Assembly (NCBI GenBank): GCA_012515615.1
Contig: JAAYYB010000355.1
Coordinates: forward strand, 1-42,971
DNA: 42,971 nucleotides
Source: Fibrobacter sp.
GTDB lineage: Bacteria; Fibrobacterota; Chitinivibrionia; Chitinivibrionales; Chitinispirillaceae
Direction of reading: 5' to 3'
Position numbers and translations under genes: made by a program. Below are positions 11,390 through 42,971 of this stretch, piece after piece. Below the pieces are notes generated by a model that saw only the letters and a list, made by a program, of their open reading frames with translations, searched no databases and was not told the DNA's origin. The number at the start of each line of letters is the position of its first letter. The first letter of the stretch is position 1.

Positions 11390-11888
11390 TCACCTCCACC
11401 TCTGGGGTAAGATAGTGACTTAACTCGTTAAACGAATCCGTGGAGAGTCTCTATGTCACCTCCGGGGTGAAAGAGTGACTTAACTTGTTAAACGAATCCG
11501 TGAAGAGTCACTATATCATCTCTGGGGTGAAAGAGTGACTTAACTTGTTAAATAATCCGTGAAGAGTCACTATGTCACCTCCGGGGTGAAAGAGTGACTT
11601 AACTTGTTAAATAATCAGTGAAGAGTCACTATGTCATCTCTGGGGTGAGAGAGTGACTTAACTTGTTAAATAATCCGTGGAGAGTCACTATGTCATCTCT
11701 AGGGTGAGAGAGTGACTTAACTTGTTAAATAATCCGTGGAGAGTCACTATGTCACCTCCGGGGTGAGAGAGTGACTTAACTTGATAAACGAATCCGTGGA
11801 GAGTCACTATGTCACCTCCGGGGTGAAAGAGTGACTTAACTTGTTAAATAATCCGTGAAGAGTCACTATGTCATCTCTGGGGTGAATA
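11390..11888. repeat. Tandem array of 59-60 bp double-palindrome repeat (eight full units)
   Basis: Eight consecutive units start at 11401, 11461, 11521, 11580, 11639, 11698, 11757 and 11817, with a ninth truncated unit from 11876. Lengths alternate between 59 and 60 bp. Each unit holds a TCACC-5nt-GGTGA near-palindrome, then AGTGAC, then a TTAAC-TT-GTTAA palindrome, then GTCACT, which pairs with AGTGAC. Units differ by a few substitutions and by aaacgaatcc versus aaataatcc. The same family recurs at 14612-14738 and, mostly inverted, at 42318-42520. It lies between the minus-strand gtrA-like gene and the plus-strand acetate kinase fusion. The repeated part is contiguous with no unique spacers, so it is not a CRISPR. 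Confidence 0.95.
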
Positions 11889-12211: not shown

Positions 12212-14542
12212 ATGCCAGTTAAAAATATCCTCATTTTTTTGAAAGAAAATGTATTATTGTTCAAAGATTTTCCGGATGAAAGTCTGCAGAAAATAATCGA
12301 CGAATCGCGGGTTGTAACCTTCGAGGCAAACGAGGCGATAATAGAGTTTGGTGCGGAAGGCAGATTTTTAGGTGTACTGATTGACGGTGAAGCGGTTGCA
12401 TCAAACACTGATAACAACGGTCAGAGTCATCGACTCTGGGTCATGAAATCAGGTGATATTTTTGGTGAGATGTCACTGATGACCGGGGACAGAACCGTAG
12501 CAGACATAATCGGCTTAACACACTGCACAGCGCTTATAATTCCCCAGTCTGTTTTCTCTACCGCACTTGTAACCCGGCCTTCAGCGATACGATATCTGTC
12601 TAAAGTCATTGCAGATCGCCTGAAGAATGCCCCGCTTGTTCACCAGACGTCTCCGGGTTTAAAAACTACCGCATCCGAGAAAAAACAGGATCCTTACGGC
12701 TTTAAACTTCAAAGCGCTACTCCTGAAAAAATTCTGGTCATAAACTGCGGTTCATCATCTCTTAAGTACCATGTATTCAATACTGCCGATGAAAACAAGA
12801 ACGCATTCGGCAACATAGAAAAAATCGGTGAAACTGGAACGAAACACACGATTAACACTTCCGGGGGCAAAAAGAGCATAGATCTGCCCAAAGGTGATCA
12901 CGCAGGAGCATTCATTTCGATGGTCGAGGAGCTGACCTCGGCCTCGGTGATAAAAGATCCAGGCGAGATATCAGCTATAGGCCACCGGATTGTGCAGGGT
13001 GGCGACAGGTTCAGCGGTGCAGAGGTCGTAACAGAAGAAGTCATAAATGCTATAGACGAGCTGAGTGAATTTGCCCCTAACCACAATCCGGTTCATGTGG
13101 TAGGTATCCGGGAAGCGCAGAAAGCCTTCCCCGGCGCACTTCAGGTTGTAGTATTCGACACGGCATTTCACCATACTCTTCCGCCCTATGCGTATCTTTA
13201 CGGATTCCCCTACGAATTCTATGAGAAGAACAAGATACGCAAATATGGTTTCCATGGGACATCCCACGCCTATGTAGCATTAAAGGGTTCCCAGACAATC
13301 GACAGACACTTCAATGAGCTTGAAATCATCAGTTGCCACCTCGGAAACGGATCATCGATAACCGCAATAGACCACGGCCGCTCAATAGACACCTCAATGG
13401 GCCTGACTCCTACTGACGGTCTGATAATGGGTACCCGAAGCGGAAGCATTGATCCGGTTGCCCTGATCCACATAATGAAAGATCGTAAATTGTCATCTAA
13501 AGAGGCAGAGAGACTAGTAACACGCGAAAGTGGATTGATAGGAATCTCCGGTCTCTCAAACGACATGCGGGTATTGGAAAAGGCAGCACAAGAGGGAGAT
13601 CACAAAGCCCTGTTAGCCATAAAAACATTCAGCTATCAGATCCGCAAATATATAGGTTCCTATATTGCCGCAATGGGTGGTCTTGATCTGCTTATATTTA
13701 CAGGGGGAATAGGCCAGGGCAGCTCAACAGTAAGAAGCCTTGCCTGTCAGGGATTGGGATACATGGGTATCCAGATTGATGAGGCCAAAAACCGGGCAGC
13801 AAAAGGCTTTGCGGAAGTTTGTGACATCTCTGCAGAGTTTTCCAGGATAAAGACTTTAGTTGTCCCGACAAATGAAGAATTGATGATTGCACGGGAAACA
13901 CTCCGTACTCTCAGCAAGCACCATATTACCCGCATCATTTCCAGCACCCGCCCCAAGGTAGTACCCATTGAGGTCTCTGCTCACCACATTCACCTCAGTC
14001 AGGAACATGTGGAAGCTCTGTTCGGCAAAGGACATAAGCTTACAAATCAAAGCGAGCTATCACAGCCGGGGCAGTTTGCATGTGCAGAAAAACTCAACCT
14101 TATCGGGCCAAAAGGCAGAATAGAGCGTGTCAGGGTACTTGGTCCAGTAAGAAAAGAGACCCAGGTCGAGATCGCCATGACCGAACAGTTTAAACTCGGC
14201 ATTCATCCGCCAGTAAGAGAATCCGGGGATATAAAAGATACTCCCGGAGTGACACTTGAAGGCCCGGCAGGAACAATTACGATTGAAAAGGGAGTAATCT
14301 GCGCTCTTCGACACATACACATGACCCCGGAAGACGCCTTGGGAATGGGCCTGACAGACAGAATCAAAGTCAGGGTCCGTATTGAAAATTCAGGACGGGA
14401 TCTGATCTTCGGCGATGTCCTTGTAAGGGTTCACCCATCATTTCGCCTGGCGATGCATATCGATACAGACGAGGCAAATGCAGCGGGGATTAAGACAGGG
14501 GACCTTGGACATATAGAAAGTATTCAGAACCAGATAGTTTAA
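12212..14542 (+). CDS. cNMP-binding / acetate kinase / PduL phosphotransacylase fusion
   Basis: One 776-residue chain carries three domains. Residues about 10-140 are a cyclic-nucleotide-binding (Crp/CAP-type) sensor with a phosphate-binding cassette (FGEMSLMTGDRTVA, E86 and R94 present). Residues 172-570 are acetate kinase: INCGSSSLK, catalytic Asp in FDTAFH (D316), KYGFHGTSH (H348), HLGNGSS (H376), GTRSGSIDP (R409), NEE at 554-556. Two usual motifs deviate: GHR-V-V-H-GG reads GHRIVQGG and GGIGENS reads GGIGQGS. Residues 580-776 are a PduL-type (PF06130) phosphate acyltransferase with metal-site His clusters HHIH (591-594), RHIH (700-703) and MHIDTDEAN. PduL would make acetyl-phosphate from acetyl-CoA and the kinase would convert it to acetate plus ATP, or the reverse. 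No helix-turn-helix is present, so the sensor probably acts on the enzyme. Ribosome-binding site CAGGAG. No microcompartment shell genes nearby. Confidence 0.92.
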   Translation: MPVKNILIFLKENVLLFKDFPDESLQKIIDESRVVTFEANEAIIEFGAEGRFLGVLIDGEAVASNTDNNGQSHRLWVMKSGDIFGEMSLMTGDRTVADIIGLTHCTALIIPQSVFSTALVTRPSAIRYLSKVIADRLKNAPLVHQTSPGLKTTASEKKQDPYGFKLQSATPEKILVINCGSSSLKYHVFNTADENKNAFGNIEKIGETGTKHTINTSGGKKSIDLPKGDHAGAFISMVEELTSASVIKDPGEISAIGHRIVQGGDRFSGAEVVTEEVINAIDELSEFAPNHNPVHVVGIREAQKAFPGALQVVVFDTAFHHTLPPYAYLYGFPYEFYEKNKIRKYGFHGTSHAYVALKGSQTIDRHFNELEIISCHLGNGSSITAIDHGRSIDTSMGLTPTDGLIMGTRSGSIDPVALIHIMKDRKLSSKEAERLVTRESGLIGISGLSNDMRVLEKAAQEGDHKALLAIKTFSYQIRKYIGSYIAAMGGLDLLIFTGGIGQGSSTVRSLACQGLGYMGIQIDEAKNRAAKGFAEVCDISAEFSRIKTLVVPTNEELMIARETLRTLSKHHITRIISSTRPKVVPIEVSAHHIHLSQEHVEALFGKGHKLTNQSELSQPGQFACAEKLNLIGPKGRIERVRVLGPVRKETQVEIAMTEQFKLGIHPPVRESGDIKDTPGVTLEGPAGTITIEKGVICALRHIHMTPEDALGMGLTDRIKVRVRIENSGRDLIFGDVLVRVHPSFRLAMHIDTDEANAAGIKTGDLGHIESIQNQIV

Positions 14543-14560: not shown

Positions 14561-14602
14561 AAAAAAGCCGCTCTTGTGAAAAGACATGAGAGCGGCTTTT
14601 TT
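14561..14602 (+). terminator. Rho-independent terminator after the acetate kinase fusion
   Basis: A stem of gccgctct (14567-14574) and agagcggc (14589-14596), preceded by six A and followed by six T, lies 18 bp after the stop codon. It ends transcription before the repeat copies and the malic enzyme gene, so the fusion is probably monocistronic. Confidence 0.9.
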
Positions 14603-14611
14603 ATTTGCATT

Positions 14612-14738
14612 CCTCTGGGGTGAGATAATGACTTAACTCGTTAAATGGCCACAAGTGTTACTGAGTCACCTCTGGGGTGAGATAGTGAATCAACTCGTTA
14701 AATGCCACAAGCATCACTGAGTCACCTCTGGGGTGAGA
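14612..14738. repeat. Second copy of the double-palindrome repeat family (about 2.3 units)
   Basis: Units of 56-57 bp begin at 14614 and 14671, and a partial unit begins at 14727. They share TCTGGGGTGAGATA, AACTCGTTAAAT and GAGTCACC with the 11390-11888 array, but the inner segment differs (GCCACAAG instead of AATCCGTG). The rest of the gap between the terminator and the malic enzyme (14739-14867) holds no gene; it carries the malic enzyme ribosome-binding site. Confidence 0.9.
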
Positions 14739-14867
14739 TTTCGAGTTCCTCGCAATTAGCTTTTTAGCAATCCTCAAAAATTATCATTGAAACTGCCTTT
14801 GGATAAAAGAAGAAAAGAATCTATTTTTAATGATCTATTCTACTTATTATGCAAGAGGAAAAAGCAA

Positions 14868-42317: not shown

Positions 42318-42520
42318 CATCTCTGGGATGAAACAATGACTTAAGAACACCCCAAGGTGACACATTTATTTCTCCGGGTGACTTTTTGATTTAACGCGTT
42401 AAGTCAAAGGTCTCATCCCAGAGTGACTTTTTGATTTAATGCGTTAAGTCACTGTTCCACCCCAGAGGTAACTTTGTTGTTTAGCATATTAAGTCGCAGT
42501 TTCACCTCAGGTGATTACCC
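42318..42520. repeat. Third locus of the double-palindrome repeat family, mainly inverted
   Basis: Three or more degenerate units: ttaacgcgttaagtca (42393-42408) and ttaatgcgttaagtcact (42437-42454) on the opposite strand to the 11390 array, with caccccagag and tcacctcagg after them. A half unit in the forward sense (tctctgggatgaaacaatga) starts near 42320. TTAACGCGTTAA is a perfect 12-bp palindrome. Spacing is about 40-60 bp and less regular than in the first array. Confidence 0.75.
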
Positions 42521-42846
42521 CTCACTACGGATCTAATTATTTACCACAATTTAAAACATACAAGGTGAATTAGTATCAAAATGCTAAGTTACCTCTGGGG
42601 AACTCACAAGTAAGTTACAAAATTATTACTGAGTGTAATAAAGTCTCCCCCCTGCCAAATAAAAGTCCGGAAATCCCAATCACAACAATTTTAGTTTAAT
42701 CGAATAAAATCACCTCTTCTATCCAAGCCGGAATTTCAGCAGAGCAAAGGAGATTAATTGTGAATGAAGGATATCTCTTGAAGAAGTCGCAATTGAAAAG
42801 ATGATAGATCTCATTTAATGGAATCTACTGTACCCGGTACCTCATT
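42521..42846. other. Intergenic region with no recognised gene
   Basis: AT-rich; one more fragment of the repeat (acctctgggg, 42592-42601) is present. No frame with protein character and no tRNA-like or terminator structure noticed. Confidence 0.55.
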
Positions 42847-42971
42847 TTACGAACAAACCATCTCTTTGAGTAAATCCAGTCCAACTATTTTGCTGCTTGT
42901 TGTAATCATTTTCGATACTGCAGAACCGGTTACACCCAGATAAGCTGCCAGATCGATATTGGAAAACCCGA
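42847..42971 (-). CDS. C-terminus of a helix-turn-helix protein, possibly REP-associated transposase (partial)
   Basis: The minus-strand frame is open from the right edge to the TAA at 42847-42849, giving only about 40 residues. The start GFSNIDLAAYLGVTGSAVSK has the shape of a C-terminal HTH (two helices with Gly at the turn and a Ser-Lys recognition helix). This motif ends many RAYT/IS200-like transposases (compare GxSLKEIGxxxGxxxSTVSR from memory) but also some regulators. Its position beside palindromic repeats suits a RAYT, but the catalytic domain lies outside the window. Confidence 0.5.
   Translation of the reverse strand, partial: GFSNIDLAAYLGVTGSAVSKMITTSSKIVGLDLLKEMVCS

Follow-up and report, generated by a model that had tools for sequence, protein, structure and literature searches.

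Known repeat systems and the analyzed locus

Short palindromic REP/BIME repeats accompanied by RAYT transposases (a combination called REPtron) are known from Escherichia, Pseudomonas, and Stenotrophomonas (PMC2817692, PMC3733652). Another group, the TIRtron/TIRYT elements (PMC3733652), corresponds to the TnpA-REP subclass 2.1 (PMC6006769). The GGGGWSAS inverted-repeat motif is found in most, but not all, TIRYTs (PMC3733652), and a published survey reported no REP-like sequences near the genes of the large subclass 2.1 (PMC6006769). Literature searches combining Fibrobacteres or Fibrobacterota with REP or RAYT found no paper describing such repeats in this phylum.

In the present work, a stretch of 42,971 nucleotides from Fibrobacter sp. 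(contig JAAYYB010000355.1, hereinafter the window) was analyzed. It contains a long array of two alternating palindromes, termed the A and B dyads. The array very probably represents a BIME/REPIN-type cluster of non-autonomous hairpin elements that are related to the ends of a transposase gene, designated RAYT-I, and were most likely spread by RAYT-I.

Similar to a REPtron, the family comprises more than 100 short intergenic palindromes that alternate in orientation and lie on both sides of a Y1 transposase gene, and the abundance of the repeat tracks that of the cognate transposase. Unlike in a REPtron, the unit has no GTAG tag, its two dyad types form a regular 45/60-bp lattice, and RAYT-I is a long, multicopy transposase with a DnaA-like tail. 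As with REPINs (PMC3116915), the minimal element is an inverted doublet folding as one hairpin, and doublets occur both singly and in ordered tandem clusters, some of which adjoin RAYT genes; in contrast to REPINs, adjacent hairpins share an A dyad, which results in spacerless arrays. In common with TIRtrons/TIRYTs, the Y1 transposase carries a helix-turn-helix/DnaA-like domain at its C-terminus, and there are inverted repeats on either end, a type of repeat that can disperse as dimers or clusters. However, the ends of RAYT-I carry TCACCTCnGGGG and not GGGGWSAS, and the very large regular array family also differs from what is seen in TIRYTs. RAYT-II, another transposase of the genus, with GGGGACGGACTA, is nearer to the TIRYT motif. 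What is new about the system is the association, in two species, of a 2.1-like RAYT with a large and highly regular repeat that forms arrays. This pairing provides a specific protein and DNA substrate for testing BIME formation.

Repeat arrays of the window

According to direct reading and repeat finders, array 1 (positions 11396–11886, plus strand) consists of nine A and eight B dyads in strict alternation with a period of 59–60 bp and has alpha polarity (A then TGACTTAAC). Direct reading of the window sequence gave TCACCTCnGAGGTGA as the A dyad, the copies in array 1 being mostly TCAYCTCYGGGGTGA, and TGACTTAACnnGTTAAGTCA as the B dyad, for which the array 1 form is TGACTTAACnnGTTAA...GTCA. 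Tandem Repeats Finder delimited the array at 11397–11886 (period 59, 8.3 copies, 91% matches), and a second repeat finder agreed (59–60 bp, about 91% matches). The steps from copy to copy were 60, 59, 59, 59, 60, and 59 bp. The A motif was matched 16 times in the window vs. 2.7 expected, and none of 100 shuffles reached this number.

The sequence and a repeat finder also showed two further arrays. Array 2 (14609–14739, plus strand), made up of three A dyads and two B dyads, separates the genes of the acetate kinase fusion and malic enzyme, and the degenerate array 3 (42318–42520, minus strand) flanks a RAYT gene on its 3′ side. Between array 3 and this gene lies an isolated A-type end, TTACCTCTGGGG (42589–42600, plus strand), recognized from the sequence and from the 3′ flanks of other RAYT-I copies. 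This gene, encoding a RAYT-I (Y1 transposase), is cut by the contig end; only its 3′ end (42847–42971, minus strand) lies in the window, with 93% identity to residues 285–324 of the complete copy on contig C338. Since the window runs into this 3′ end, which the original prediction had overlooked, its third array is a RAYT flank.

Direct reading, Tandem Repeats Finder, and the 59–60-bp spacing thus confirmed the array that the original prediction had placed at 11390–11888. The further copies that it had located at 14612–14738 and 42318–42520 are real as well, the latter having a 45-bp unit and, for the most part, the opposite polarity. The predicted unit of 59–60 bp holds for array 1 and was refined to a lattice in which two dyads alternate at a centre-to-centre distance of 22.5 bp; the regular spacing and alternating orientation of these half-units are those of REP/BIME repeats. 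In a sister species of the same genus, nearly all A/B centres are exactly 22.5 bp apart, so that the 45-bp lattice is the simpler form. In the window's species, many B-to-A gaps contain about 15 bp extra, giving a unit of 59–60 bp instead of 45 bp.

Two further readings of the array were rejected. Boxes of the integron attC type (RYYYAAC/GTTRRRY) can be read in the B dyad; the boxes are separated by 2 bp, and the units have no cassettes between them. The CRISPR reading was discarded since the array has no spacers.

Size and distribution of the repeat family

A search with a 36-column sequence model revealed at least 163 units in the window's genome and at least 145 in the sister species. A third genome (G010) contained six units, all on one 3.1-kb contig, and the remaining 21 genomes of the taxonomic family contained zero. 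All repeat-unit counts are lower bounds. Both assemblies of the genus are drafts, with many arrays and RAYT genes falling at contig ends, and that of the window consists of 430 contigs with 6.6% estimated contamination. BLAST with the array as a query found 46 places in the window's assembly. The repeat is therefore not confined to the array 1 locus, and these places, together with the unit count, bear out its earlier description as a dispersed family. The family shares with REP/BIMEs a short palindromic repeat, an extragenic location, and a copy number above ~100. The GTAG or CGTC tetranucleotide at the hairpin foot is absent from the unit consensus; GTAG occurs near some array edges only.

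Genome-wide, the A motif yielded 311 strand-matches vs. 0 in the reversed control. The fetched loci comprised 59 clusters from the window's genome and 39 from the sister species, and the unit matrix had zero matches on their reversed sequence. Among 98 clusters, 49 had A at both ends and 4 had B at both ends, the others being mixed or cut by contig ends; therefore, the minimal element is most likely A-B-A.

The count across the taxonomic family showed 185 and 120 A-dyad strand-matches in the two genomes of the genus, 10 in G009, 13 in G008, 7 in G010, and 0–4 in the others, i.e., A dyads are abundant only in the genus's two genomes. When ~85,000 named species genomes were scanned with a degenerate pattern, one true match was found, in a Fibrobacter-labelled MAG with the match spacing of contig C121 in G010, along with four more isolated single matches, roughly the number expected by chance. 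Viral contigs scanned with the degenerate A/B repeat pattern gave no matches. In G010, a short array of 45-bp units is located at ~1791–1940 of contig C121 (JAAYEB010000021.1), and no RAYT was detected in this genome. Such an array speaks against a link with the transposase, but the 3.1-kb contig may be misbinned or the array may be a remnant.

Transposase genes associated with the repeat

The two genomes of the genus encode Y1 transposases of three kinds, namely, RAYT-I (protein signature MxTxPRxxVPxAxY...), RAYT-II (signature MPRMARIESPGSLFH...), and short IS200-type proteins. The RAYT genes were located without reference to the repeat, through protein and profile searches. A dyads are located within 500 bp of all 31 available RAYT-I gene ends (5′ and 3′, two species), which are related copies and not 31 independent events. 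The same distance from the ends of other Y1 transposase genes, used as controls, contained A dyads in 0 of 12 cases, and by chance A sites would occur at a density of 0.026 per kb. RAYT-I is thus flanked by the repeat on both sides, as is the cognate RAYT gene of REP/BIMEs. In the RAYT-I copies of the window's genome, the 5′ homology runs to the A dyad ...TCATCTCTGGGG and is followed by divergence. The 5′ ends of RAYT-II carry TAGTCCGTCCC in place of A dyads (5 of 5).

Similar ends are kept by five RAYT-I relatives from three other genera (37–43% identity): TCACCTCnGGGG-type sequences occur in both flanks of four of them and in the 5′ flank only of the fifth. Most of the more distant RAYTs have other ends or none that were recognized. 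Two RAYT-I relatives, L175 and L196 (both G008), have a degenerate HUH motif with NQYN or NQYD replacing NHYH, which suggests that catalysis may have been lost while the A-type ends remain.

RAYT-II is flanked by a second dispersed repeat, GGGGACGGACTAC.../...GTAGTCCGTCCCC (loci L155, L157, L160, L166, and L167). This repeat is also present at L068 (13223–13863), L092 (4848–5373), and L123 (1035–1641) and bounds elements of ~230–280 bp that hold an A/B unit and form short head-to-tail runs.

The RAYT-I protein has a length of 324 aa and matches Y1_Tnp above the curated cut-off. A sequence search of PDB gave nothing useful. The structure predicted for RAYT-I (mean pLDDT 80, pTM 0.56) showed the best fold match in Foldseek with 4er8 (a RAYT in complex with a REP hairpin; E = 3.8e-5), followed by the IS608 and ISDra2 transposases. 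The Y1 fold, HUH motif, and catalytic tyrosine of RAYTs (TnpA-REP) are all present (Y1_Tnp, HYH, YVHLNP, 4er8). Foldseek additionally indicated similarity of the predicted C-terminus with the DnaA DNA-binding domains 3pvp and 1j1v (E 0.015–0.04, target TM 0.75–0.77); the Pfam HTH matches were weak. A C-terminal domain of this DnaA-like or other helix-turn-helix type, seen here in the predicted structure, characterizes TIRYTs and subclass 2.1. The motifs of TIRYTs and subclass 2.1 are Y[IV]HLNP and NH[YF]H; the RAYTs studied here contain YVHLNP or YIHFNP, and their HYH is preceded mostly by D, also by G or N. RAYT-I fits TnpA-REP subclass 2.1 and the TIRYT group, an assignment made by motif and domain only.

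The arrays are most likely the REPIN/BIME-type element of this subclass-2.1-like (TIRYT-like) RAYT; we infer their transposition from the observed family, lattice, intergenic placement, positional turnover, RAYT-I bracketing, and hairpin capacity. The HUH/tyrosine domain of RAYT-I would cut single-stranded A-B-A hairpins, probably during replication, and the cut hairpins would be re-inserted between genes. The arrays could then expand by local duplication or by repeated insertion at one place. Besides hairpin cutting by RAYT-I, its DnaA-like tail might bind the double-stranded A/B lattice, so that a nucleoprotein lattice would tie the spread of the repeat to replication or chromosome organisation; this additional function is considered unlikely.

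Genomic context and positional turnover of the arrays

A BIME-like element, a multi-site operator, and a condensation/nuclease signal had originally been proposed for the repeat; the analysis yielded no positive evidence for the last of these. In an operator, the A and B dyads would bind one or two dimeric regulators of the acetate kinase fusion and other genes. Array 1 indeed separates two divergent genes and precedes one that encodes a cyclic-nucleotide-binding domain; moreover, the dyads are well conserved and show no compensatory changes, a pattern to be expected of protein sites. However, the sister species retains the block comprising GtrA, the cyclic-nucleotide-binding–acetate kinase–PTAC fusion (73% identity), and malic enzyme, with arrays 1 and 2 both missing from the corresponding gaps. 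Among the sampled loci, only one array position is common to both species, and several orthologous genes adjoin an array in just one of the two. Such positional turnover is the hallmark of a repeat that moves or turns over rapidly, and conservation of the block without its arrays, together with array positions that are almost never shared, argues against an operator.

The gene arrangement points in the same direction. Nearly all arrays are intergenic, with a few overlaps involving small, probably spurious ORFs. The flanking gene pairs are codirectional in 47 cases, divergent in 16, and convergent in 8, with no obvious skew; arrays thus also occur between convergent genes and show no excess between divergent ones. 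The copy number is far beyond that of a usual regulon and the family is restricted to the genus. An operator function is accordingly quite unlikely, and the BIME-like option is supported by a dispersed, intergenic family whose inverted dyads alternate and are linked to a REP-associated transposase. Array 1 is most likely not a gene switch, its effect on acetate kinase, if any, being incidental; such arrays should not be read as operators of the adjoining gene.

The fusion gene itself (12212–14542, plus strand) is a single ORF in which acetate kinase and phosphate propanoyltransferase (PTAC) are joined to a cyclic-nucleotide-binding domain. The sister species has an ortholog of equal length, and searches in four other genera revealed no full-length match. 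A terminator-like hairpin, AAAAAAGCCGCTCT...AGAGCGGCTTTTTT (14565–14605), is located directly past this gene, ahead of array 2.

The dyads could also be sites of host chromosome organisation (for gyrase, IHF, or nucleoid proteins), in which case the association with the transposase would be a relic. Dyads regularly spaced in long arrays are consistent with this, such sites have been reported for BIMEs of E. coli, and according to the literature BIMEs bind several host proteins (PMC2817692). Nevertheless, this origin is very unlikely, as positions are not conserved between the sister species, the family is missing from other genera of similar gene content, and the specific bracketing of RAYT-I would be left unexplained.

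Hairpin formation and similarity of the units

Fold prediction shows that A-B-A can form a single hairpin, in which A is paired with the next A around B. This folding beats 200 shuffles, with z-scores of −3.3 and −4.5 for two short units and about −3 for the units of the window, and corresponds to the inverted doublet of REPINs, which forms one single-stranded hairpin. Compensatory base changes were sought within A, within B, and between adjacent A dyads, and none were found; hence, there is no visible sign that pairing in RNA or in single strands maintains the palindromes. This also counts against the transposase-linked reading, for which selection on hairpin pairing is not demonstrated.

The same folding, as well as the position of some arrays immediately past stop codons, would suit transcribed hairpins acting in termination or mRNA stability. 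An element of this kind would be expected neither from the lack of covariation nor from the polarity of the arrays, which has no clear relation to gene direction. In addition, an Rfam search with the array gave no match, and array 2 is downstream of a separate terminator-like hairpin, which makes a role at the RNA level highly improbable.

As for the preferred reading, a RAYT-I-spread hairpin element, the units are more alike within than between arrays (83% vs. 74% and 78% vs. 70%; 0 of 500 permutations), which fits array growth by local duplication or repeated insertion. The same similarity would suit a simple VNTR that arose by local tandem duplication and was never mobile, but that explanation has a negligible probability and is refuted by the genome-wide count, with its units spread over dozens of loci; the sister species, too, has such a family.

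Other sequences recur beside the arrays. A third repeat, CAACCGTTACGGATCGTCATCCCGTTG, adjoins several of them (L054, L055, L060, and L114), suggesting possible intergenic hot spots for repeats, and a fourth common flank sequence, TTTGCCTCATCCAACTGCGATTTTCAGGTT, adjoins the arrays at L057 and L079.
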